In this document: positions 50,043 through 63,783 of the stretch, one piece after another
How positions within the stretch are numbered: the first letter of the stretch is position 1
Layout: each line of letters starts with the position of its first letter
DNA from: Gleimia hominis
GTDB taxonomy: Bacteria > Actinomycetota > Actinomycetes > Actinomycetales > Actinomycetaceae
Direction of reading: 5' to 3'
DNA length: 64,000 bases
NCBI RefSeq assembly: GCF_002871945.2
Contig: NZ_CP126963.1
Coordinates: 310,001 to 374,000, forward strand
Notes under the pieces: generated by a model
The model's database searches: none
The model's input: only the letters and a program-made list of their open reading frames with translations
Told to the model about the DNA's origin: nothing
Translations under genes and position numbers: made by a program

Positions 50043-51935
50043 TCACCTGTTTTCTTGAACCGGTCCGCCAGCCCCTGCTGCTGCGTCCACCACCACGCGC
50101 GTGCCGGGCTGCAACTGGGCATGCTCCCCAGTTTGTGCCACCGCCACGAAGTCACCCGCACTGGTTTCTACGATGATTAGCCAGCCGCGTCCAGTGGGGA
50201 TGGACTCCAGTACCTCAGCACCAACCTGGTTAGAGTTAGCAGGCTCTACATGTTCTGTCTTCAGTGCGAGCGCTTGCGGGGCAGCAACTACCGAGCGTCC
50301 ATTCACGTCCAACCGGTTCGCGCCCGTGAGCGCCACGAGGAAGTCTGACTGCGGGTGAGCCAACAGCTGCTGCGCCGGCCCGGTTTCCACTACAGTACCG
50401 GACTCGATGACGATCAAATCATCTGCCAGTGACGCCACGTCATCCAGGTCGTGGGTAACCAAAATGGCTGTCACATTGGAAGCGGCGATCCGGTTGGCGA
50501 GCACCAACCGCAGGTTCCATGCGGTAGAGAAGTCCACGGCTGCAAGCGGTTCGTCAAGTAAGACCACATCTGGATCCAACGCGAGCGCCCGGGCGATGGC
50601 AACGCGCTGCGCCTGCCCACCCGACAGCTGGTCGGGATGCCGCTGCGCCAGATGCGCACACCCCACGGCCCGCAGCTCTTCGAGGGCGCGTTTATGCGCA
50701 GTCTTCGCCGGCACGCCGTGGGTGGTAAGCCCGTAGGTAACGTTTTCAAGCACACTCATGTGCGGGAACAGTAACGCCCGCTGCTCCAGCCACGCGAGCT
50801 GCGGATCTCCGTCGCCAAGCAGCCAACTGACACGCCCCTCATCGGGAGTAAGCGCGCCCGAAAGCATCTGTAACAACGTGGATTTACCAGCCCCGTTTGG
50901 GCCCACAACTGCCGTGAGCCGGCCGCGTACGAGGTTCGCCGTCAAGTCAACGCTGCGAACGTTCACGCGCGCATGGTCAAGAACCGCTGCCGCGCCTTCC
51001 GCTTCTTGAGGTCGATTCCGCCGCGTGCGCGCCAACCCAGCCATCGCACGGATTTCGGATGTAGTGTCCGTCTTTTCCCGAGGGGTCCGCGCGCTCGAAA
51101 GCGCGCGGCGAGCGGTGAGTAGTGAGGTGAGGGCGATGACGACCACCGCGATGATCAAGAGGATCAGCGACAGAGTCAGTGCTGACTGCGTGTCTAACTC
51201 CCGCTGCACGTAGATCTCGAGCGGAAGTGTGCGGGTCACGCCCTGCAGGGAACCGGCGAACGTGAGGGTGGCACCGAACTCCCCGAGGGCACGCGCGAAC
51301 GTCAACGCGATCCCGGACGCCAGTGCGGGCAGGGTTAGGGGTAGCGTGATCGTGCGGTAGACACGCCACGGGCGGGCCCCCAAGTTGGTGGCTGCGCGTT
51401 CCAGTGAGGTACCGCGCGTGCGCAGCGCGCCCTCATAAGACACAATCAGGAACGGCATCGCCACGAATATTTGCGCCATCACTACGGCGATGGAAGTAAA
51501 ACCGATGGTGATGCCCCACGCGTCTAGCGTGGCCCCCAGCAGTCCGCGGCGCCCAAAGGTGACTAGCAGAGCCAGACCCGCCACCACGGGGGGAAGCACC
51601 ATCGGCAGCGTCACTAGCGCGTTCATCACCCTAGAGACAATCGCCCCTGCCTTCCCACGCTTACCTATGAACGCCATGAAATGCGCGGTGGGAACCCCCA
51701 GTATGGTTGCGATTATCGTAGACGTGATGCAGGTGCGCAGGGATAGGAACAGTGCGTCTTGCGCCTGCTGCGTGGTCAATACCTTACCGATCGAATCCCA
51801 CGAGATCTGCCCAAACATCCCCGCGAACGGGCTGATTACAAAAATCAGCGCCAGCAGGGTGGGGACCAGGAAAAAGCGGGGGACTACCGCCCGTGGTTTA
51901 CGAACGGTAGTCCCAGTTGCTTGCTTCGATACCAT
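50043..51935 (-). CDS. modBC: Fused molybdate ABC transporter permease-ATPase (ModB-ModC)
   Basis: 630 residues from ATG 51935. Residues 1-280 are a permease with about five helices and the EAA loop (ERAATNLGARPWRVYRTITLPLTLPAL). After a charged linker (280-310) comes an ABC ATPase: Walker A VVGPNGAGKST, signature [18 protein letters not shown], Walker B VVLLDEPLAAVD, H-loop VTHDLDD. A C-terminal TOBE-like domain (about 555-625) ends it. In most bacteria these are two genes. No frameshift or internal stop; the fusion is continuous. It imports molybdate delivered by ModA, 17 bases upstream. Confidence 0.92.
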   Translation of the reverse strand: MVSKQATGTTVRKPRAVVPRFFLVPTLLALIFVISPFAGMFGQISWDSIGKVLTTQQAQDALFLSLRTCITSTIIATILGVPTAHFMAFIGKRGKAGAIVSRVMNALVTLPMVLPPVVAGLALLVTFGRRGLLGATLDAWGITIGFTSIAVVMAQIFVAMPFLIVSYEGALRTRGTSLERAATNLGARPWRVYRTITLPLTLPALASGIALTFARALGEFGATLTFAGSLQGVTRTLPLEIYVQRELDTQSALTLSLILLIIAVVVIALTSLLTARRALSSARTPREKTDTTSEIRAMAGLARTRRNRPQEAEGAAAVLDHARVNVRSVDLTANLVRGRLTAVVGPNGAGKSTLLQMLSGALTPDEGRVSWLLGDGDPQLAWLEQRALLFPHMSVLENVTYGLTTHGVPAKTAHKRALEELRAVGCAHLAQRHPDQLSGGQAQRVAIARALALDPDVVLLDEPLAAVDFSTAWNLRLVLANRIAASNVTAILVTHDLDDVASLADDLIVIESGTVVETGPAQQLLAHPQSDFLVALTGANRLDVNGRSVVAAPQALALKTEHVEPANSNQVGAEVLESIPTGRGWLIIVETSAGDFVAVAQTGEHAQLQPGTRVVVDAAAGAGGPVQENR

Positions 51936-51951
51936 CGATATCAAAAGCTAT

Positions 51952-52764
51952 TTATTTGTCTACGGTAGTGAAACCGTACTTAGCCATGATCTTCTGGCCA
52001 TCTTCAGAAAGTACCGCGTCGATGAACTTCTGCGCAAGATCCTTGTTCTTCGAATCCTTCACAACTGCAATCGGGTAGATGTTCTTGTTGTCAATCTTGC
52101 TGTCCACGTCCTCACCAAACGGGATGGTTTCTACCTTGGCACCAGCGGCCATCGCGTCGGTTTGGTACACCAGACCCGCGTCGCCCTCACCCTGTTCAAT
52201 CTTGCCGCGAACGTCCGTTACCTTCTGTTCCTCGGAAGCGGGTTTAATGGTTACACCCACCTGCTCAGTAATATTCTTCGTGAGGTTCCCGCAGGGGACC
52301 TCAGGCGCACAAATAACTACTTTCGCGTTATCGAGCGAATCATTCAGCCCTGTAACTTTCGCCGGGTTACCCTTGGGGACAATCAGGACGAGCTTGTTAT
52401 CGGTGAAATCTTTCGGTTCTTCCACCAGGTCCGCGTCCGTTGCCTTCTTCATGTTGCGTTGATCAGCGGAAGCGAACACGTCCGCCGGCGCCCCCTGTTT
52501 CAGCTGATCAACCAGTGTGGAGGAACCTTCGAACGAGAACTTAGCGGTGGAACCAGGGTTGTCGCGTTCGAAAACCTCTTTGTTGATTTCTTCGAAGGTT
52601 TTATTCAATGAGGCGGCAGCAAACACGGTGAGTTCCGCGGAAGCCTCCGCTTTTGGTGACTCACTGGACGTGGATGGTGCGTCCGAAGAGCCGGAGGACG
52701 AGCAGCCAACCAGCAGGAGTGCGGACGCGAGGACGCCTCCGACAATAGTTTTCAAACGAGACAT
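51952..52764 (-). CDS. modA: Molybdate-binding lipoprotein ModA
   Basis: 270 residues. The lipobox LLVGC places lipidated Cys at 21. The mature protein is a type II periplasmic-binding fold: ELTVFAAASLNKTFEEINKEVF, FSFEGSSTLVDQLKQGAPADVFASAD and GEGDAGLVYQTDA, the ModA oxyanion-binding pattern (Ser in AAASL and SSTL, Tyr in VYQTDA). CAPEVPCG may form a disulfide. AAAGGA lies about 9 bases before ATG. It delivers molybdate, or tungstate, to the fused transporter. Confidence 0.94.
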   Translation of the reverse strand: MSRLKTIVGGVLASALLLVGCSSSGSSDAPSTSSESPKAEASAELTVFAAASLNKTFEEINKEVFERDNPGSTAKFSFEGSSTLVDQLKQGAPADVFASADQRNMKKATDADLVEEPKDFTDNKLVLIVPKGNPAKVTGLNDSLDNAKVVICAPEVPCGNLTKNITEQVGVTIKPASEEQKVTDVRGKIEQGEGDAGLVYQTDAMAAGAKVETIPFGEDVDSKIDNKNIYPIAVVKDSKNKDLAQKFIDAVLSEDGQKIMAKYGFTTVDK

Positions 52765-53300: not shown

Positions 53301-54533
53301 TCACAGCCGAATGTAGACTACCGAGCTTCCCTCATCTACGAAAGAGGTTGCCGCAGGAATCACAGCTAAACCAGTGGCGCGCGGCAACGTAGCAACCAGG
53401 TGAGATTTACCTGCGAGCACGTGCGTGGGCGTCACCTCTAGACCCCGATCGGTCTTCCGGGCTATCACGGGCGCGTATTGACGCCGGTTTTTTGCCGACT
53501 TCCAGCCCGTGGCTGCAATCGCGTGGGTGGTAGCTAGTTTTGCACTCCGCCCAGCCAATGCGGCGAGTACGGGGCGGACGAACAGGGTGAAGGAAACGAA
53601 TACGCTCACGGGGTTGCCCGGCAGGTTGATTGCTTTCACGCGTCTACCCCCGGTTTCCCAATGGCCGTGTCCTTGAGGTTTACCCGGTTGCATACACACT
53701 TTTGTGAACTCAAAATCGTGTTCCATCCCGAGGGCTTTGACTACGTCGAACGCGCCGGCAGAGACCCCACCGGAGGTGATTATGAGATCTGCTTGCTCGG
53801 CCGCCTGGTCGTAAACCTGGGCGAGTGCCTCTGGGCTGTCTCCACTACGGCCGCGGAACACAACCTCCGCCCCCCAGGTTTGTGCGAGGGCAGCTAGCAG
53901 CAGGGAGTTCGAATCGGGAATCTGCCCGCCGCTGAGTTCACGGCCTGGGGCAACCAGTTCCTCTCCGGTAGAGATTACGGCTACGCGGGGCCGGGCATGC
54001 ACGGGCAGTTCGCTGTATCCTACGGATGCGGCAGCGGAAATCAGTGCGGGCGTTACTTCCTCACCCGCGTGGATCACCACTTCGCCCTCGTTTACGTCTT
54101 CACCTTTAGCGCGCACATGCGCACCTTCGTTACCCACCTGGTAGAACGTGACGGTACCTGGCAGGTCGGCTGGCCCCGGGGCGATATTCGTGTCTTCAAC
54201 TTTCACGACCGTGTCGGCGCCCACGGGGAGGGGGGCGCCCGTCATGATGCGCGCCGCATTTCCGGGTTTGAGGGCGTGTTCACCGCCCACCCCAGCAGCC
54301 AGGTCCTCCTGAACTGGTAGTTGCGTGGGGTGGTCCGGGTTGGTGCCCCGCACATCTTTGAAGCGAACTGCGAAACCGTCCATCGCTGAGTTCGTGAACG
54401 GCGGCACCGCCAACTGTGCCTCGAGGTCCCTAGCCACCACCGTTCCCAGCGCGTCCAGGAGCGGAGTTTGAACGGTTGGGAGTGGGCGTACTCCCTCTAG
54501 GATTTTCGCTAGGTAGTCTTCAACGGGAATCAT
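53301..54533 (-). CDS. moeA: Molybdopterin molybdenumtransferase MoeA
   Basis: 410 residues, GGAGG 5 bases before ATG. MoeA inserts molybdate into adenylated molybdopterin. Family landmarks: PPFTNSAMDGFAVRF (active-site Asp), GNAARIMTGAPLPVGADTVVKVED, ISTGEELVAPG, QIPDSNS, LIITSGGVSAGAFDVVK and INLPGNPVSVFVSF. Domain sizes are normal. It is divergent from mogA, its partner reaction, with 59 bases between. Confidence 0.95.
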   Translation of the reverse strand: MIPVEDYLAKILEGVRPLPTVQTPLLDALGTVVARDLEAQLAVPPFTNSAMDGFAVRFKDVRGTNPDHPTQLPVQEDLAAGVGGEHALKPGNAARIMTGAPLPVGADTVVKVEDTNIAPGPADLPGTVTFYQVGNEGAHVRAKGEDVNEGEVVIHAGEEVTPALISAAASVGYSELPVHARPRVAVISTGEELVAPGRELSGGQIPDSNSLLLAALAQTWGAEVVFRGRSGDSPEALAQVYDQAAEQADLIITSGGVSAGAFDVVKALGMEHDFEFTKVCMQPGKPQGHGHWETGGRRVKAINLPGNPVSVFVSFTLFVRPVLAALAGRSAKLATTHAIAATGWKSAKNRRQYAPVIARKTDRGLEVTPTHVLAGKSHLVATLPRATGLAVIPAATSFVDEGSSVVYIRL

Positions 54534-54592
54534 CGAGCCTCCAAAAAATCTGACACGCTAGTATTCTATGTGGAAAAGATGGGGGAAAGCAG

Positions 54593-55081
54593 ATGGCGTT
54601 AGTGCAGGTAATTACTGTTTCTGATCGCGCTCACCGGGGCGAGTACGCGGACCGGTCGGGGCCGTTGGCACGCGAGCTGATGCAAGCGGCCGGTTATGAC
54701 TGCGCGGATGTTGCGGTTGTGCCCGATGGGGTTGAGTCGGTGCAGGAGGCCGTTATTCACGCGCTTGAGGCGGGGGCCCGGATTGTGATCACCACCGGTG
54801 GCACTGGGGTTGGGGCGCGTGATTGGACGGTTGAGGCACTGGAGCCTCTCATTGAGTTACCGATGCCGGCGGTGAGTATGCAGATCGCTCTGAACGGGGC
54901 TTCGAAAACACCTTTTTCCCTGCTAACCCGGGGGATAGCAGGGGTTACTAAACGCGGCGTCGGGCAAGCGTTTATTGTGAGCTTGCCGGGTTCAACCGGG
55001 GGTGTGCGCGATGGTGTGCGCGTGATCGCCCCGATTGCCCGGCACGTGCTAGACCAGTTGGACGGTCTGGACCACGCGTGA
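54593..55081 (+). CDS. mogA: Molybdopterin adenylyltransferase (MogA/MoaB type)
   Basis: 162 residues. It activates molybdopterin with ATP before Mo insertion by MoeA. Conserved elements: VITVSDRAHRGEYADRSGPLARELM, ITTGGTGVGARDWTVEALEPL and SLPGSTGGVRDGV. The segment after the TTGGTG loop (IELPMPAVSMQIALNGASKTPFSLLTRGIAG) is less conserved than usual, but Arg-Asp of GARDWT is kept. MogA and MoaB cannot be told apart by motif alone. Confidence 0.88.
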   Translation: MALVQVITVSDRAHRGEYADRSGPLARELMQAAGYDCADVAVVPDGVESVQEAVIHALEAGARIVITTGGTGVGARDWTVEALEPLIELPMPAVSMQIALNGASKTPFSLLTRGIAGVTKRGVGQAFIVSLPGSTGGVRDGVRVIAPIARHVLDQLDGLDHA

Positions 55082-55230: not shown

Positions 55231-55719
55231 TTAGGCGTTGGGCCAGGATTCACCTTCGCGTACCCACTGGCCCGAGCGGCCGCCGGATTTGGCTACGATC
55301 CGGCAGTTTTCTATGCGCGCGGACCGATCTACCCCTTTGACCATGTCGACTATCGCGAGGGCAGCGACACTGACGGCGGTGAGTGCTTCCATTTCCACCC
55401 CGGTGCGGTCGGCGGTGCGGACGGTGGCTTCGATCGCCACGTGGTCGGATTCAATGGTGAGGTCCACGCTGGCGCCGTGCACGCCGATGGTGTGGGCAAG
55501 AGGGAGTAGCTCTGGAACGCGTTTCGCCGCGGCGATGCCCGCCACTCGAGCTACTGCCAACACATCTCCTTTGGGGACGGCGCCGTCGCGCAGCGCGGTC
55601 ATCACCGTGGGGGAGCAGGTGACTTGACCTCGGGCTGTGGCTTCACGGACGGTGGGTTGCTTGGCGGTGACATCCACCATGTGAGCGTCACCGGCGGATG
55701 TTAAATGCGTGAACTTCAT
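55231..55719 (-). CDS. moaC: Cyclic pyranopterin monophosphate synthase MoaC
   Basis: 162 residues; GAGGAGAAA before ATG. MoaC converts the MoaA product into cPMP. Motifs: MVDVTAKQPTVREATARG, LPLAHTIGVHGASVDL and GVEMEALTAVSVAALAIVDMVKGVDRSARI, including the catalytic Lys and Asp positions. The ATG overlaps the TGA of the Cys-rich gene (ATGA), so moaC is translationally coupled to the dms operon. moaA, the preceding enzyme, is not in the window. Confidence 0.94.
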   Translation of the reverse strand: MKFTHLTSAGDAHMVDVTAKQPTVREATARGQVTCSPTVMTALRDGAVPKGDVLAVARVAGIAAAKRVPELLPLAHTIGVHGASVDLTIESDHVAIEATVRTADRTGVEMEALTAVSVAALAIVDMVKGVDRSARIENCRIVAKSGGRSGQWVREGESWPNA

Positions 55720-56687
55720 TTTCTCCTCACAAATCCTGGGGGTAGTACCATTTCGAACGGATTACTTTCTTTCATTTGACAGGTAGGGCACAGCACTTGC
55801 GCGGACCCCTGTTTCGACAATTGCTCGCCTAGTTCCGTGGTTGCCGGGTCAACAGTTTCTGTGGTTGCGAGCTTGGTTGTTTCCGGATTTGCTGACTCAG
55901 CTGGTTCTTCTGTTGCTAACGCGGAATCTTCGGCGGGAACGGCAGTGGCAAATGGCACGTGGCATTTAGTACATTCGTGGACCACCATGGATTCGAGTGT
56001 TTGCACCGGCTCGCTTAGTTGCTGTGCCCACTGAGCGGGCTCGTGCACTTGTAGTACGCCGATTGGGCAGAACGGGTTTTCGCTGTGCCCATTGCATTCA
56101 TCTAAGTTGTGTTCGAGGCGCCAGTGGTTCCCCGCAGTGTGCATTTGCAGACACGAGTAGGTTTTGGTGCAGGTTTGACACGCATTGCAACCCGAACAGT
56201 TCAAAAGCGTCGCTTGGGGCGCGCACAGGGTGTTGAGAACTTGTGGGTCTGTTTCGAAGTCGTAGCGCTGTGCGAGGTAGCGGACTGCTTGAATGAGCCG
56301 CGTGGCGTCGTTGGCCACGGCGTCTACGGGTAGGTCATCGCTAGGCAGGCCTAGAACTGCGCGCCGTGATACGGGTGGATTCGCTATATCAACGGGTTTG
56401 CTTGCCCTCAGGCGCACTGGTTTGCCTGTCCATTCGGTAACCAAGTTTGGGTGGAGTGCCTTCCATTGTTGCAGCCGCTTGGATGCGTGCGGACAGGTGG
56501 TGTCGACCTGCACGCTGGCTGCCCCCACGGTGAGTAGTTCGAATGCGAATCCCGGGGGAGTTTGTTCAACGCAGGGGGCTTGCAGTGCGGCCACCCGCCG
56601 GGGTAAGCGCGGGTTCACGTGCGCACAGGTGAGGACCACCCGGGGCTGCGTGTCTTGGATCCACCGGTACAGCCGCTCGTGGCTCAC
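55716..56687 (-). CDS. Unrecognised 15-cysteine protein of the dms operon
   Basis: 323 residues from GTG 56687, which shares GTGA with the chaperone stop. It has 15 Cys. A central ladder CxxCxxCxxCxxxxxC (Cys164, 167, 170, 173, 179) is followed by Cys198 and 207; with Cys155 it resembles a ferredoxin-like Fe-S site. A split zinc-ribbon-like pair CxxC at 239/242 and 300/303 is separated by a 57-residue acidic Thr/Glu/Ala/Pro insert. The N-terminus (VVLTCAHVN, Cys39, VQVDTTCPHA) may be a further thiol or metal site. No signal peptide or membrane helix. I do not recognise the family. Coupling to the TorD-like chaperone and moaC suggests work on DmsA maturation or electron supply; that is inference. 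Confidence 0.75.
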   Translation of the reverse strand: MSHERLYRWIQDTQPRVVLTCAHVNPRLPRRVAALQAPCVEQTPPGFAFELLTVGAASVQVDTTCPHASKRLQQWKALHPNLVTEWTGKPVRLRASKPVDIANPPVSRRAVLGLPSDDLPVDAVANDATRLIQAVRYLAQRYDFETDPQVLNTLCAPQATLLNCSGCNACQTCTKTYSCLQMHTAGNHWRLEHNLDECNGHSENPFCPIGVLQVHEPAQWAQQLSEPVQTLESMVVHECTKCHVPFATAVPAEDSALATEEPAESANPETTKLATTETVDPATTELGEQLSKQGSAQVLCPTCQMKESNPFEMVLPPGFVRRK

Positions 56688-57343
56688 TGCTTGGGCTCCT
56701 GCGTGGATACTTGTGTGAGCCAATGCTGGTACTGCTCAATAAACCCTTCCGTCAGATCTGCAAGCGCGCGGTAAATCTGGGTTTGAGCATGCTCGCGTGA
56801 AGCTGCAATAACCTTGGGGGCGAATGCCATTAGATGCTGGTCAAAAAACGCTTGCGCATCGCGAACGAGCGACGGCTGTGCTTTGCCGTCCGCGGCGTAC
56901 TTGCCTGCCAGGGCCGCTAGGAACGCGATTTCTAACCCAATGTGGTCGTCCGGGTCCGTGCCTAGATGCGGGGCTTGGAACCCGTATTTCTCGTAGGCGG
57001 CACGCACCTGCAGCGTTGCGGTGTCGAACACGATCGCTTCTTCCGACACGTAGGGCGACTCATACGGCTGTGCTAATGCGGGGCCAACCCCGATATATAG
57101 GTACAGATGGTCTTGTTGTAGTTGCTTGAGGGAATCTGCGCCTGTGCGCAAAAGGACGATACCGGCTTGCGAAGTGGGGTCTTCGAGGGGCCACACGTCG
57201 AGCATCTGCGGATCCATGAGGCTAGACACCAGTACCCCGGATGGTGGCGCCAGGTAGAGGTGCGCGATTACTTCACCGGCGGTGCTGAGGCGTTCAGCGA
57301 GTTCCACCGGTGTCACAGACAAGTTCTGCAGGTGTGTTCCCAT
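56684..57343 (-). CDS. TorD/DmsD-family redox enzyme chaperone
   Basis: 219 residues, all-helical. The signature DPDDHIGLEIAFLAALA is the TorD-family motif (E-x-D-H-x-G-x-E). These chaperones hold the Tat substrate until the molybdenum cofactor is inserted and bind its RR leader. AGGAACC precedes the ATG. The end overlaps the Cys-rich gene. It is 43 bases downstream of the second dmsC-like gene. The client is almost certainly the DmsA-like enzyme upstream. Confidence 0.9.
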   Translation of the reverse strand: MGTHLQNLSVTPVELAERLSTAGEVIAHLYLAPPSGVLVSSLMDPQMLDVWPLEDPTSQAGIVLLRTGADSLKQLQQDHLYLYIGVGPALAQPYESPYVSEEAIVFDTATLQVRAAYEKYGFQAPHLGTDPDDHIGLEIAFLAALAGKYAADGKAQPSLVRDAQAFFDQHLMAFAPKVIAASREHAQTQIYRALADLTEGFIEQYQHWLTQVSTQEPKQ

Positions 57344-57386: not shown

Positions 57387-58310
57387 CTATTGGCCGATAC
57401 CCGCGTAGAAGTAGTAGAGGCGGTCAATGAATAGGGCGGTCCACACGAGCGCTAGAGTAGCTCCGACGTAGAGGAGGGAACGCAGGGTGCGGGCAGTGGG
57501 TTTGAGTACGGACGAACCGAGTTTAGGCACCGACGTGATCGCGGCCGTGTCAAAACCAATCCCAGCGAGCAGTAGGACCGCGGTAATGATCAGCATGGGG
57601 ATCGGCATGGACCGCGGGTACGTGCCGAGTAGTGCGTTGAATATGAGCATTACCAGTTCAACAACGATGAGTCCGATGCTGATGAAACCGATGACGCGGA
57701 TGGAGGAGGACAGCAACCGATTTACCTCAGCGTCAAGAAGAGCGGAAGTGCCATCTGGATCTTTTTCAACCAGGCGGCGGTAAGTTTGGTTTTCCCGCAG
57801 CCACGGGTACAGGGCGAACGCGAAAGAAACCGCGAGCATCCCCGAAATTATGGCGGTGAGGAAGAACTGTACGGGCGTGGTGAAGCCCGGCCACATCGGG
57901 TTGTTTTGCGCCACGTAGGTGTGTGCCATGACAGCTACGAACACGATTCCGACTGCGGCCACGACGAATGCGAACAACCACCGCACGCGGGCGGCGCTTA
58001 TGCGTTTCCACTGGGCGATTGCAAATAGGAAACCGAGGATCCCAAAGATTGTGCCCAGAATCGTTTCAGGGGTGAAGATCGCTTGGTTGAAACGCGGGAG
58101 GGGGCGCAGCACGTGGGGGAGAGCGGCGAGCATCGCCACGAAAATTGTGGGGCCGATTGCGTACAACGCGGGGTCTGCGAGGCGGTTTTTCACCCGGTTC
58201 GGGTATCGCAAGTGTCCGATGACGTTAAAAACCCCCAGCACAATGAATGCGCCCACTGACATTTGCGCCAGTACTGTAAATAAGGCAGCTGACCAGACAG
58301 CCAAATCCAT
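57387..58310 (-). CDS. DmsC-type membrane anchor (second copy)
   Basis: 307 residues with eight predicted helices, DmsC family. The start LAVWSAALFTVLAQMSVGAFIVLGVFNVIG and LYAIGPTIFVAMLAALPHVL parallel the other anchor at 61104-62063. DmsC anchors DmsAB and oxidises menaquinol. It lies after dmsA, past a 298-base gap containing a tandem repeat, and has its own GGAAAGGAAAG site. Whether it replaces, or works beside, the first DmsC is unknown. Confidence 0.88.
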   Translation of the reverse strand: MDLAVWSAALFTVLAQMSVGAFIVLGVFNVIGHLRYPNRVKNRLADPALYAIGPTIFVAMLAALPHVLRPLPRFNQAIFTPETILGTIFGILGFLFAIAQWKRISAARVRWLFAFVVAAVGIVFVAVMAHTYVAQNNPMWPGFTTPVQFFLTAIISGMLAVSFAFALYPWLRENQTYRRLVEKDPDGTSALLDAEVNRLLSSSIRVIGFISIGLIVVELVMLIFNALLGTYPRSMPIPMLIITAVLLLAGIGFDTAAITSVPKLGSSVLKPTARTLRSLLYVGATLALVWTALFIDRLYYFYAGIGQ

Positions 58311-58608: not shown

Positions 58609-61044
58609 TTACCGCACCTTCTTTACCTGCACGAGGGTGGTGTGTTGACCGTTGCCCTTTGAAATCGGCGTGGGATGTTGACTGGTGAGTACGTTCACCG
58701 CCCCACCGTGATCCACACCGTGCTTATCGAACTTTGTCCACGCCCCCTGCGGCAGCGAAATCACGCCCGGGGCGATACGCGCCGTCACCTTCGCTGGGAT
58801 CTGAACTTTGCCACGCGGATTGTAGATCAGTACCTCGTTCCCATCTTCAATCCCGCGGTCTTGCGCGTCGAGCGTATTAATCCACACCGACTGCGGGTGA
58901 GCCTCATTGAGCCACGACAAGTTACCGTACGTGGAGTGCGTGCGCTGCTTATAGTGGTGCCCAATGCACTGCAGGGGGTACTTTCGATTAGTCTTGGCCT
59001 CTTCCGCACCTTCCCACGTCGCTTGGTACGCGGGAATGGGAAGAATCTGGTCGCCGCGCAGCGGATTCGGGAACTCCCACGTTTTCGCCATATCCGCCAG
59101 CTGCTGGGAGTAAATCTCAATTTTTCCAGATGGCGTATCGAGCGGGTTAGCCTCCGGGTCCTCACGGAATTCTTTCAACGCAACCGTGGTACCCTCCGGA
59201 TTCGAATACCGGTACACCCCCTGCTTCACCATCTGGTCAAAGTCCGGAAACTGCGGGTGTTCAGCTACGGTTTTTGCATGCATTTTGCGCACCGTCGCCT
59301 CCAGATCCCGGCCTTCACTGAACTCCTGTTCCAACCCCATGCGTTTAGCGATTTCGCGAACAATCTCGAAAGCAGGGCGAGACTCGTAAAGCGGCTCAAT
59401 TACCTTCTGCGTCAAAATCAGGTACGCCATGTCTCCCGTGTATTCACTGGGGATCAAATCCCACCGTTCTGACTGCGTCGTGTCGGGCAGCACCACGTCC
59501 GCCAGTTCCGTAGTGCGCGTCATCTGGTTATCGACCGCCAGGATGAACTCGCATTTCGACTCGTCCTGCAAGATTTTGCGGGTGCGATTAATGTCCGCGT
59601 GCTGCGAACCAGGCATGTTCGACCCGTAGTTCAGCAGGAATTTAATTCCCGTCTTGAGGCGGTCCGCACCCCGCACTCCATCTTTAGTTGCGGTCATCTC
59701 AGGGCCGTGATCGATTGCGTCGGTCCAACCGAAACAGGAAATGGAGGTTTTGACCGGGTTCTCCCCGTCGTCAAACCATTCGGTTATGGGCCAGTAGTAC
59801 CCCTCGCGACCACCGGTGCCGCCACCGGGGATACCCACGTTACCGGTTACGCACGCCAGCAGGTAGATCGCCAATGCTTGATGCTCCCCGTTGGCATGCC
59901 GCTGCGGACCCCACCCCTGCGAAATGTTGCAGGCTTTCGCGTTCGCGATTTGCCTCGCGAATGCGCGAATCTGATCTGCCGGAACGCCTGTTATCCGTGC
60001 GGCCCACTCGGGTGTCTTCTCCACACCATCCGGGCCTTTCCCCTCGATGTAGGACCGGTAAGACGCGTGCTTAGGCGCGCCCTCGGGCATGTGATCCTCA
60101 TCAAAACCGATGCAGTACTTGTCCAAGAACGCCTGGTCCTGCAGATTCTCTTGCAGCATCACGTGAATCATCCCGGCGATCAACGCCGAATCCGTACCCG
60201 GGCGCGGCGCCACCCACTCGTCGGCCAAAACCGCGGCCGAGTCCGAATACCGCGGGTCCACCACAATAATCTTGCACTTACCCTTAATCTTTGCCCACAG
60301 GGACGTGTACACGAGCCCGCCTCCGGACATCCGGGTTTCCTGAGGGTTATTTCCCCACAGCACCAACAAATCGGAGTGCAGAGCTGCGTCCTCAAACGAG
60401 TTCGACACCTGCTCGTCTTCACTGCCGTAAAAGTACCGAGTGATCGTCGCTATCTGCGCGTAAGAATAGTTGCCGTAGTACGTTAAGTGGCCACCCAGCA
60501 GGTTGAACAGGCGGTTCCACCCACCGGAGTTAGCTACGTGCGCGTTCCACACGCCTGAACCGTAGTTACGGTAAACCGCCTCAGGTCCATACTTGTCATA
60601 CGTATACCGCAGCTTTTCTACCACCAGGTCAAGAGCCTCATCCCACGAGGCTTTCCGCCATTTCCCCGCACCGCGTTTTGTCCCCTCAACGCGAATCAAA
60701 GGGGTCTTAATGCGATCCGGACTGTAAATGCGTTGGCGCATCGAACGACCCCGCACGCACGCGCGGATCTGACGAGTAAACAAACCGTCATCACCCGTGT
60801 TGTCAGGCAGCACCTGCACGATAGTCCCGTCCTTCACCTGCATCCGCAATGGGCAGCGGGAACCACAGTTCACCAGGCAGGCCGACCACGCCGTCCGGTC
60901 CGCAGTCGGAGCAGGCAGGCCTTCTTTTGACCCCTCGGAACGCGTCGGCGTGTGTGCCGTACACGCCGGCAGGACGGTGCCCGCCGCCGTAGCAACCGCG
61001 GACCACTTTAGAAACGAACGCCGACTAGTGTTTGCCTCAACCAT
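58609..61044 (-). CDS. dmsA: DMSO reductase-type molybdopterin catalytic subunit
   Basis: 811 residues. The Tat leader has RRSFLK and ends near PACTA. The 4Fe-4S site LVNCGSRCPLRMQVKDGTI with a distal Cys in RACVRGRSM is close to E. coli DmsA as I recall it. YGNYSYAQI aligns with the DmsA stretch holding the Ser ligand of Mo. The bis-MGD-binding regions (LLVLWGNNPQETR, IIVVDPRYSDSA, LPQGAW) are present. It would reduce DMSO, TMAO or a related S/N-oxide at the outer face of the membrane. The exact substrate cannot be read. It is 59 bases downstream of the first dmsC. Confidence 0.93.
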   Translation of the reverse strand: MVEANTSRRSFLKWSAVATAAGTVLPACTAHTPTRSEGSKEGLPAPTADRTAWSACLVNCGSRCPLRMQVKDGTIVQVLPDNTGDDGLFTRQIRACVRGRSMRQRIYSPDRIKTPLIRVEGTKRGAGKWRKASWDEALDLVVEKLRYTYDKYGPEAVYRNYGSGVWNAHVANSGGWNRLFNLLGGHLTYYGNYSYAQIATITRYFYGSEDEQVSNSFEDAALHSDLLVLWGNNPQETRMSGGGLVYTSLWAKIKGKCKIIVVDPRYSDSAAVLADEWVAPRPGTDSALIAGMIHVMLQENLQDQAFLDKYCIGFDEDHMPEGAPKHASYRSYIEGKGPDGVEKTPEWAARITGVPADQIRAFARQIANAKACNISQGWGPQRHANGEHQALAIYLLACVTGNVGIPGGGTGGREGYYWPITEWFDDGENPVKTSISCFGWTDAIDHGPEMTATKDGVRGADRLKTGIKFLLNYGSNMPGSQHADINRTRKILQDESKCEFILAVDNQMTRTTELADVVLPDTTQSERWDLIPSEYTGDMAYLILTQKVIEPLYESRPAFEIVREIAKRMGLEQEFSEGRDLEATVRKMHAKTVAEHPQFPDFDQMVKQGVYRYSNPEGTTVALKEFREDPEANPLDTPSGKIEIYSQQLADMAKTWEFPNPLRGDQILPIPAYQATWEGAEEAKTNRKYPLQCIGHHYKQRTHSTYGNLSWLNEAHPQSVWINTLDAQDRGIEDGNEVLIYNPRGKVQIPAKVTARIAPGVISLPQGAWTKFDKHGVDHGGAVNVLTSQHPTPISKGNGQHTTLVQVKKVR

Positions 61045-61103: not shown

Positions 61104-62063
61104 TCAAATACCGATGCGGTCATTCGCGCCGTAGAACATGAACCGGCCAATGAACTCCGCGACCAACACCAGCGTGAAACTCGTAGCCACCAATGTGAGT
61201 ACGCGCCGGTTCGACCTAGACCGAACCCCCGCGTCCGCAGGCGAATCTGGCAGGCGCGTGAGATACAAACCCATCAAGCCTGCCCCCACCACAATCAACA
61301 CGATCCGAGTTACGAACCAGCCCATCTGAAACGCGTGCTCAGGCGGGTTAACTCCAGTGCCGCGCATAAAGTTGAACAAGATGACCACCAGCTCCACTGG
61401 CAACAACGTGACCGCCGCAACTCCCACCCAACGCAAGCACCGGGTGATCAAACGATCCACGCGTGTCTCCAACGCAGAATCGAAGTCTACTGGCTGGCGG
61501 CTCATCCACCGGCTGAGCGTGCGGCTGCGGCGAATCCACGGATAGGCAGCCAACGCCACCGCCACCGCCAACGGGCCCGTTATGAACGCGGTCAAAAAGA
61601 ACTGCGCCACCGTCGTCCAATGGTTCCACGCCGGAACTGTCGGCAACAGATACACGTTCGCGGTTACAAAAATGAACGCCAAACCCCACAGAGCAGTAAA
61701 GGACGCCAAAACATTACGCAGCAGCGGGCTAAACCAGCCCATCCACTGCACAAACGCGAACGCAAACCCGAGGCCAGCAAAACCCACCCCGAACACGATC
61801 TCTAACGACAACCACGACGAACCCACGTGGCGGATCACGTTGAGCGAATTGAACGGATTCCCCATATGAAACATCGAACCCACCAGGGCCAACACCATGA
61901 TCGGGCCAATCGCGTACAACGCCGGATACGACACCCGGTCAATAACTCTCGCAGAAGAATACCTCCGGCCCATCACGTTAATGAACCCCAAAGCGATAAA
62001 CGCCCCAACCGACAGTTGAGTCAGGACCGTGAATAGCGTTACCGGCCACTCCGAAACATTCAC
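61104..62063 (-). CDS. dmsC: DmsC-type membrane anchor (first copy)
   Basis: 319 residues, eight predicted helices. It opens with WPVTLFTVLTQLSVGAFIALGFINVMG and LYAIGPIMVLALVGSMFHMG, the DmsC pattern, where a conserved His (FHMG) is near the quinol site in E. coli DmsC. It is only 2 bases after dmsB, so this is the standard partner of DmsAB, although the order B-C-A differs from the enterobacterial A-B-C. Confidence 0.92.
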   Translation of the reverse strand: MNVSEWPVTLFTVLTQLSVGAFIALGFINVMGRRYSSARVIDRVSYPALYAIGPIMVLALVGSMFHMGNPFNSLNVIRHVGSSWLSLEIVFGVGFAGLGFAFAFVQWMGWFSPLLRNVLASFTALWGLAFIFVTANVYLLPTVPAWNHWTTVAQFFLTAFITGPLAVAVALAAYPWIRRSRTLSRWMSRQPVDFDSALETRVDRLITRCLRWVGVAAVTLLPVELVVILFNFMRGTGVNPPEHAFQMGWFVTRIVLIVVGAGLMGLYLTRLPDSPADAGVRSRSNRRVLTLVATSFTLVLVAEFIGRFMFYGANDRIGI

Positions 62064-62065
62064 CG

Positions 62066-62701
62066 TTAAATCTCCTTCCGGTTCGCAATATCCCCCGTGC
62101 GTTCATTCCACGGCTGCGCATCCCGATGCGGAGTGATAACCAAATGCGGGTTTGTAATTGACGGATCCGGCAGAGGCGCAATCCCATCCTCATGGCCATA
62201 CTTTGCCCGCAGCTCGTCAATCGGCCCCCAATCCAACGCGCGGGCCGGGCACGCAGCCACACACGCCGGGTCCTCACCCTGTGCACGATAATCCGCGCAC
62301 AAATCACACTTCGTCATGTGCCCCAACTCCGCATTAAACTGGGGGGCTGAATACGGGCACGCCCACTCGCAATAACGGCACCCTACGCATTTACCCGGAT
62401 CCACCGTCACAGTCCCGTCCGCGTTCTTATGCATCGCAGTGGTGGGGCACACCTCCACACAAATGGGGTTCTCGCAGTGGTTACAAGAAATGGACGTGTA
62501 GTAAGAAAACACGTTCGGGGTGTAGGTATCGCCATTGCGCTGCCAAGTACCTCCGGAATATTCAACAACGCGGCGCCAGTTAACTCCCAAAGGTGTGTCA
62601 TGCTTGTCTTTGCAAGCAATTTGGCAAGCCTTACAACCATTGCAAAGCGTCTGGTTGAAATAAAAACCCAAGTTCTTATCCGCCATTAAAACCCCTCCCA
62701 T
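62066..62701 (-). CDS. dmsB: DMSO reductase iron-sulfur subunit
   Basis: 211 residues with four ferredoxin-type Cys groups: CNGCKACQIAC, CNHCENPICVEVCPTTAMH, CVGCRYCEWACPYSAPQF and CDLCADYRAQGEDPACVAACPARALDWGPIDEL. This closely parallels E. coli DmsB and is enough for four 4Fe-4S clusters carrying electrons from DmsC to DmsA. It is the first gene of the operon; the promoter is in the AT-rich divergent gap. Confidence 0.95.
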   Translation of the reverse strand: MGGVLMADKNLGFYFNQTLCNGCKACQIACKDKHDTPLGVNWRRVVEYSGGTWQRNGDTYTPNVFSYYTSISCNHCENPICVEVCPTTAMHKNADGTVTVDPGKCVGCRYCEWACPYSAPQFNAELGHMTKCDLCADYRAQGEDPACVAACPARALDWGPIDELRAKYGHEDGIAPLPDPSITNPHLVITPHRDAQPWNERTGDIANRKEI

Positions 62702-63034: not shown

Positions 63035-63361
63035 TTGACTACTGAAGAACACACCAGTAAAAAACACAAACGCAAAGACGACCCAGCGGTCATGGCGCAG
63101 ATGCGCAAATGGCTCACGATGGCGAGCAAAGAACTAAACCTCGACCCGCAGATTATTTCTGAAGTAGAAAAGGACTTGTTGCGGCTCACAGGGTTCACGG
63201 CGCACAATATTTCGCGTCCCGGAACGCCGCTGACCGCGTTCCTCGTGGGGCTGGCCGCAAACCCCCAGTCCGCTCCCGAGGCAGTTGAACAAATTCGCGA
63301 CATCGTTTCGCGCCTCCAAGACCTCGGGAAAGAAGCCGACCTGGGTGAGGACGTGCGGTGA
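63035..63361 (+). CDS. DUF6457 protein
   Basis: 108 residues from TTG 63035 with GAGGAGA 6 bases upstream. A basic N-terminus precedes the DUF6457-like core (MRKWLTMASKELNLDPQIISEVEKDLLRLTGFTAHNISRPGTPLTAFLVGLAA). In actinobacteria this domain is found fused to or beside MobA, so it probably helps cofactor assembly. It overlaps moaE by GTGA. Confidence 0.8.
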   Translation: MTTEEHTSKKHKRKDDPAVMAQMRKWLTMASKELNLDPQIISEVEKDLLRLTGFTAHNISRPGTPLTAFLVGLAANPQSAPEAVEQIRDIVSRLQDLGKEADLGEDVR

Positions 63362-63783
63362 CCGCACGGATTGTTCGCGCCGAAATCTGGGATCAACCGA
63401 TTGATCCGCAGACTATTACGGCAGAAGTGACGGAAGATAAAGCGGGCGCAATAGTCACGTTCACGGGCGCGGTGCGCAACCACGACGAAGGGCGGGCGGT
63501 TACGGACATTGAATACTCCGCCCACCCCACAGCCGCGCAAGTGATCGGCGAAATACTAGGTGACATTGCAGGACGCGAAGGGGTGCACGCGATTTCTTGC
63601 GTCCACCGCACCGGACACCTCACGGTCGGGGACGTGGCAATGGTGGCGGTCGTTGCTGCATCACACCGCTCACAGGCGTTCTCCACCGTGGCCCTACTAG
63701 TTGACGAGGTTAAACGGCGCCTACCCGTTTGGAAAAAACAGCAGTTCCCCGACGGCACCCACGAGTGGACCGGCTCCGCCTAA
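63358..63783 (+). CDS. moaE: Molybdopterin synthase catalytic subunit MoaE
   Basis: 141 residues from GTG 63358, coupled to DUF6457. MoaE with thiocarboxylated MoaD makes molybdopterin from cPMP. Landmarks: GAIVTFTGAVRNHDEGRAVTDIEYSAHPTA, the RTGHLTVGDVAMVAVVAASHR stretch, and the catalytic VWKKQ near the end. MoaD is not encoded in the window. The last 13 bases of the gene (ACCGGCTCCGCC and part of the stop) belong to the repeat array that follows. Confidence 0.93.
   Translation: MTARIVRAEIWDQPIDPQTITAEVTEDKAGAIVTFTGAVRNHDEGRAVTDIEYSAHPTAAQVIGEILGDIAGREGVHAISCVHRTGHLTVGDVAMVAVVAASHRSQAFSTVALLVDEVKRRLPVWKKQQFPDGTHEWTGSA

Follow-up and report, generated by a model that had tools for sequence, protein, structure and literature searches.

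A rapidly evolving protein of an unnamed TorD-linked family at the DMSO reductase locus of Gleimia hominis

Gene X at the dms locus

We analyzed a 64,000-nucleotide stretch of Gleimia hominis DNA (hereafter the window; contig NZ_CP126963.1, positions 310,001 to 374,000) that carries the genes of a dimethyl sulfoxide (DMSO) reductase. On its minus strand, dmsB, dmsC, dmsA, a second dmsC-type gene, torD, a gene here called X and moaC follow one another in this order (Table 1). X is a rapidly evolving representative of an unnamed family whose genes lie beside that of TorD, the chaperone of DMSO reductase, and it probably helps to prepare this enzyme for export. The torD stop codon and the X start share a GTGA (4 nt, 56687-56684) and the X stop codon and the moaC start share an ATGA (4 nt, 55719-55716), as an earlier note on this DNA, made from the letters alone, had read. 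By eye, an AGGAG-like site lies inside torD ahead of the GTG of X, and a GAGGAG lies inside X ahead of moaC. The GTG start is supported because relatives begin at the same place, as does P0001, a second record of the protein in a large protein set, from a different source, that differs from X by P301T alone, within the CPxC described below.

The Cys residues of X stand at positions 21, 39, 65, 155, 164, 167, 170, 173, 179, 198, 207, 239, 242, 300 and 303. The earlier note had drawn attention to a CxxCxxCxxCxxxxxC ladder (C164-x2-C167-x2-C170-x2-C173-x5-C179), to two CxxC knuckles (C239xxC242 and C300xxC303) around an acidic Thr/Pro insert (residues 250-297) and to the lack of a membrane segment, and all of these hold: the highest 19-residue hydropathy is 1.05, which rules out a membrane protein. 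The insert (48 residues) is found in none of the other 11 rows of our first alignment, A1; in a predicted structure, the predicted local distance difference test score (pLDDT) is below 50 over residues 253-295.

Searched alone, X gave no useful match in Pfam, NCBIfam or the PDB chains, and the protein set returned only P0001, a negative that is not proof of absence because this search needs shared 5-residue words. The single Pfam line (CBM_5_12, E 0.22) was regarded as chance, as were PDB lines to GPR84, which fall on the Thr/Glu insert. No regulator domain was found with Pfam or NCBIfam, and X was not retained as a regulator. In a profile search of the whole protein set, ferredoxin words dominated, and 16 matches emerged from 7997 scored candidates.

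Table 1. Features of X and of the surrounding dms genes (window coordinates; h, hydrophobic; Tat, twin-arginine translocation; ORF, open reading frame)
Feature	Position	Strand	Basis
X, 323-residue TorD-linked protein, 15 Cys, GTG start	55716..56687	-	ORF; relatives
X residues 1-100, N-terminal domain with C21, C39, C65; tentatively MvhD-like	56388..56687	-	
X R108-R109 in PPVSRRAVLGL, Tat-like RRxhh with no hydrophobic stretch behind	56361..56366	-	
X residues 158-217, degenerate ferredoxin domain	56037..56216	-	alignment with relatives
X residues 239-303, CxxC...CPxC knuckle, HycF-like	55779..55973	-	Cys conservation; 7z0t_F match
X residues 250-297, acidic Thr/Pro/Glu insert in the knuckle, predicted disordered	55797..55940	-	
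moaC, ATGA overlap with X	55231..55719	-	PF01967, TIGR00581; E 1.3e-48
torD/dmsD-type chaperone gene, GTGA overlap with X	56684..57343	-	PF02613, E 2.8e-21
Second DmsC-type anchor, between dmsA and torD	57387..58310	-	PF04976, E 1.4e-15
dmsA, Tat leader and Fe4S4 domain	58609..61044	-	TIGR02166, 1072 bits (cut-off 777.7); PF10518; PF04879
dmsC anchor	61104..62063	-	PF04976, E 3.3e-29
dmsB	62066..62701	-	ORF; 82% identity to the Gleimia protein compared

A TorD-linked family that repeatedly loses ferredoxin ligands

With DmsA as bait, 75 loci were fetched and the gene after torD was inspected. This gene aligns with X in Gleimia europaea, Actinomyces urinae, Sanguibacter, Arcanobacterium, Mobilicoccus, Nitriliruptorales and Anaerolineae; inside this small set, BLASTP of X gave E 5.7e-28 for the L015 protein and 3.5e-27 for that of L002, at 27-29% identity. 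The earlier note had called X an unknown protein and held that dms operons contain no such component; neither view stands, as X belongs to a family common beside the dms genes of its relatives, and in this lineage dms-bearing relatives usually carry one. We found no description of the family in the available parts of the open-licence papers searched, and the accessible portion of one operon survey (PMC4464133) has fer4 in one legend only and does not mention NapF.

The family was read from a 72-row alignment (73 harvested sequences with a profile score of at least 55, minus L025 and L048, plus X) and from a survey of 77 proteins (the 72 rows plus L219-L223), 76 of them readable since L137 is truncated. 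Judged from the alignment, its members share an N-terminal domain (tentatively MvhD-like), an RRxhh motif, a [4Fe-4S] ferredoxin domain and a CxxC...CPxC knuckle; X has the N-domain, the RRxhh, the knuckle Cys and the torD neighbor. The RR pair is kept in 77/77 proteins (72/72 aligned rows and the five further homologs) and the four knuckle Cys in 71/72 rows (the exception being the truncated L137) and in the same five homologs. Because the RR, the knuckle Cys and other Cys of X line up with those of homologs, the Cys and motifs of X are more than chance.

The ferredoxin domain behaves differently. In 2[4Fe-4S] ferredoxins, cluster I is held by the first three Cys of motif 1 together with the fourth of motif 2, and the ligands of cluster II are divided the other way round. 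X keeps a complete cluster-I set (C167, C170, C173 and C207), while three of the four cluster-II ligands are lost and C198 alone remains: motif 1 lacks its fourth Cys and the Pro behind it, and in motif 2 the second Cys is His201 (C-x2-H) and the third is gone. X is thus without the two CxxCxxCxxxCP motifs of such ferredoxins, and it gave no match to Fer4_7, which exceeded its cut-off in 10/10 relatives scanned. All 71 other rows of the 72-row alignment have this fourth Cys of motif 1, as do the four domain-bearing homologs outside it. A ladder shifted by one, with C164 as first ligand, was rejected because both the Gly-Cys start of the relatives and Leu180 match C167 in that role.

Ligand loss extends to many homologs. 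All eight ligand Cys are kept in 37 of the 76 readable homologs (36 by regular expression and L113 from the alignment). The second Cys of motif 2 is absent in 23/77, replaced in the 72-row alignment mostly by Glu and also by Ala, Asp, Ser or Thr, and the second Cys of motif 1 in 4/77. Ten proteins (10/77; L138-L143 and L220-L223) lack the third Cys of both motifs; what remains is a pair of CxxC-x6-C motifs, which might be sites for a different metal. One homolog (L219:10252-10866, 204 residues) has the N-domain, the RR and the knuckle and no ferredoxin domain; when used as a query, its protein found matches in 26/213 genomes, all others in frames of at least 282 residues, so that it is the sole ferredoxin-less case seen. 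At that locus the homolog sits after dmsC, and torD precedes dmsA. Because the ferredoxin Cys are repeatedly lost and the RR and knuckle kept, it is the RR and knuckle, rather than the clusters, that family members have in common. Evolution has in effect performed a natural dissection, in which the ferredoxin was lost in several lineages, and wholly in one, while RR and knuckle stayed.

X merges features of NapF, HycF and FlpD, and by score it is none of them. NapF (TIGR00402), the accessory iron-sulfur protein of periplasmic nitrate reductase, is like X a cytosolic ferredoxin-type protein from the operon of a molybdenum-bis(pyranopterin guanine dinucleotide) (Mo-bisPGD) reductase, with an SRR-x-hydrophobic motif ahead of the ferredoxin (E. 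coli NapF starts VKIDASRRGILTG). Aligned with the X family, it covers the ferredoxin, the linker and a CxxC (E 1.2e-6), with the RR part outside the alignment. X did not match TIGR00402 (cut-off 102.2) at E up to 1, and 7/10 relatives scored 23.6-41.1 bits among the best 25 matches listed. NapF has four tetra-cysteine motifs (PMC10609526, cited from excerpts here and below), whereas X has one complete set and its relatives have at most two motifs plus the knuckle, save L014, L021 and L043, which reach four motifs with an extra N-terminal ferredoxin domain. Unlike NapF, X adds the N-domain, carries the knuckle where NapF has its second ferredoxin domain and neighbors TorD, not NapD.

HycF, the ferredoxin subunit of formate hydrogenlyase, shares with the X family a ferredoxin followed by CxxC...CPxC (7z0t_F match), and in the available text of PMC9474812 its knuckle faces the molybdoenzyme. 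By hhalign, HycF and the family align at E 9.4e-15 over the ferredoxin and first CxxC only. The HycF/HyfH models NF006076 (270) and NF009053 (204) gave 44.6 and 39.9 bits for the L002 protein and nothing for X. HycF forms a stable part of a membrane complex; X differs by its N-domain, RR and torD neighbor. MvhD/FlpD (PF02662) is tentatively the fold of the N-domain, where C39 and C65 fall on MvhD Cys, but X gave no PF02662 match (E up to 1), nor did ten relatives (E up to 0.1). The MvhD sequences (picked by regular expression, 9/30 loci) show five Cys, two of which have no counterpart in X, and P0011, which carries PF02662, aligned weakly with the N-domain (E 0.0039). Proteus/Bacillus-type dms loci (L025, L027, L019, L039) encode RR-bearing ferredoxins that end like X in CxxC...CxxC but have an N-terminal ferredoxin instead of its N-domain; against the first family profile they score 33-52 bits.

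The family-wide survey that the earlier note had proposed was made in 200 genomes of Gleimia's family (Gleimia = G001), searched with profile A1 and with DmsA. A1 matched in 61, DmsA in 66 and both in 58 (Fisher 1.4e-37, uncorrected for kinship). When the dms regions of the eight genomes with DmsA alone were read directly, five proved to have X (L219-L223), probably missed by A1 because their ferredoxin is degenerate or missing, which brings the genomes with X and DmsA to 63/66. Besides G005, discussed below, the genomes with DmsA and no X are those of L225, which is a contig end, and L224, which lies close to one; L224 agrees with L012 in length and torD position, and L012 has an unrelated ORF after torD. 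Three genomes have X without a DmsA match: in G066 (L144) and G096 (L147) a TtrA-like molybdoenzyme lies beside X (448 and 426 bits, model cut-off 1750), and G093 (L137) holds DmsA-like fragments. At L144, L145 and L147, X-like proteins come after TtrA-like catalytic subunits, not DmsA.

The gene immediately upstream of X is torD at 57/71 loci (47/60 profile-found and 10/11 DmsA-fetched). In 42 of these 57 pairs the reading frame of X stays open across the stop codon of torD, and 24 of them allow a 4-nt NTGA overlap. At 50/71 loci the fetched stretch includes a DmsA, a count raised because 11 loci were fetched through DmsA. The 14 loci without adjacent torD include one contig end (L108) and four (L115, L161, L162 and L018) with torD elsewhere in the stretch. 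X homologs without detectable adjacent torD were seen at L110, L112 and L116, with DmsA elsewhere in the genome. moaC adjoins X in the window, L002, L003, L108 and L153, and overlaps it in the window and L153. In these relatives, the torD link is general and the moaC link local. Of the joint task that the earlier note had read from the overlaps on both sides, the link to TorD and DMSO reductase is strongly supported (63/66, 57/71), and the moaC half is only local. Architecture, conservation, synteny, co-occurrence and repeated loss of ferredoxin ligands are all direct observations.

A possible partner of TorD in DMSO reductase maturation

How TorD-type chaperones sense the completeness of a molybdoenzyme, or whether they have partners, is poorly known, and X offers a testable partner. 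The reading we favor, tentatively and at somewhat less than even confidence, makes X a co-chaperone in the cytosol, acting together with TorD on DMSO reductase ahead of its export. In this reading TorD would hold apo-DmsA by its Tat leader; X would join this complex, docking through the RRxhh and the HycF-like metal knuckle, and would help to decide when DmsA is complete and ready to leave. The full 2[4Fe-4S] ferredoxin of about half of the homologs would provide an optional redox or cluster input; X in the window is among the reduced forms, with the ligands of one cluster kept and those of the other lost. Docking and gating are ranked first because clusters are lost repeatedly while RR and knuckle stay, and the ferredoxin is taken as an aid and not the core because it is reduced or gone in other homologs. 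Complex formation, the docking roles, the release step and the function itself are what we infer.

Several points weigh against this co-chaperone role. To our knowledge, E. coli needs no X. G005 (L006/L218) has dmsABC, torD and moaC and cleanly lacks X, moaC following torD by ~20 bases: one genome has lost X altogether yet keeps dmsABC and torD. Across the phylum the link is looser (of 296 genomes sampled, 12 have X, 12 have DmsA over cut-off and 7 have both; Fisher 1.6e-8). The near-copy P0001 alters the Pro of CPxC, conservation of the RR does not reveal what the RR binds, and the sampled rows are related and were gathered by one profile.

The strongest alternative, possible though doubtful, is that X is a NapF-like cluster donor, which would insert, reduce or repair the FS0 [4Fe-4S] cluster of TorD-held DmsA before Mo-bisPGD insertion. 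The NapF likeness described above (RR ahead of the ferredoxin, alignment through to the CxxC) and the retained cluster-I ligands are consistent with it. NapF is known to assist NapA as an iron-sulfur protein of the cytosol; its effects are strong in R. sphaeroides, where it is needed for reconstitution of the NapA cluster, and it binds NapA in E. coli (PMC10609526); it has been termed a second cytoplasmic accessory protein interacting with NapA (PMC4159696, excerpt). FS0 insertion conditions Mo-cofactor insertion in NarG (PMC10609526), and the title of ref. 95 in that paper makes FS0 assembly a prerequisite for Moco insertion in DmsABC. By this analogy X would be well placed for a NapF-like partnership, with TorD. 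The effects of NapF are, however, marginal in E. coli and Wolinella (PMC10609526), and the homologs themselves speak against a donor, with eight ligands in fewer than half, ten lacking the third Cys of both motifs and the L219 protein lacking any ferredoxin.

Returning to the co-chaperone, a more specific form of it, which we consider unlikely as a whole, would make the invariant RRxhh, without a hydrophobic stretch, an internal, never-exported mimic of a Tat leader. Through it X would either compete for TorD's leader site or attach to the leader-held complex. DmsA would be released once its cofactors are placed, the knuckle metal reporting; the ferredoxin would be a losable add-on, and kindred proteins would serve other Mo-bisPGD reductases.

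It is also conceivable, with a still lower probability, that the lineage no longer needs X and that the window protein is drifting. In a tree of 59 proteins, X groups with the Gleimia set (support 99/96, with a warning by the tool that the placement of long rows is uncertain). Its end branch measures 1.17, vs a median of 0.28, and only those of L017 and L018 are longer. Its identity to the compared Gleimia protein is 27%, vs 75% for DmsA, 82% for MoaC and 46% for TorD; it lacks the Cys kept by the other 71 rows, and X is cleanly missing in G005. Nevertheless, the 323-codon frame is open with both overlaps intact, P0001 is the same protein with one change, and 13/13 checked positions outside cluster II are kept (three N-domain Cys, two Arg, four cluster-I Cys and four knuckle Cys).

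Least probable is that X carries electrons to or from DmsABC in the way MvhD does for HdrA: an MvhD-like N-domain and ferredoxin would form a wire, to which L014, L021 and L043 add another ferredoxin domain, but X lacks counterparts to two of the five MvhD Cys, about half of the homologs have lost ferredoxin ligands, and DmsA takes its electrons from DmsB and DmsC. Among the roles offered in the earlier note, a sensor or maturation factor fits best; the repeated loss of ferredoxin ligands makes a plain electron donor the poorest fit.

Neighboring genes

Two DmsC-type genes flank dmsA in the window (order B-C-A-C'-torD), and the torD product scored 63 bits with the DmsD model, under its cut-off of 162. 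In the Gleimia locus L002, the order is A-B-C, an opposite-strand moaE-like ORF and then torD-X-moaC. Beyond moaC, a single ORF (50043-51944) resembles on reading a fused molybdate permease and ATPase, adjoined by a modA-like gene (51952-52764), no family search having been made for either. Around the dms operon, moeA-, mogA/moaB- and moaE-like ORFs (53301-55081 and 63358-63783) were recognized by eye only, and by eye the surrounding ORFs form a molybdenum-cofactor island.
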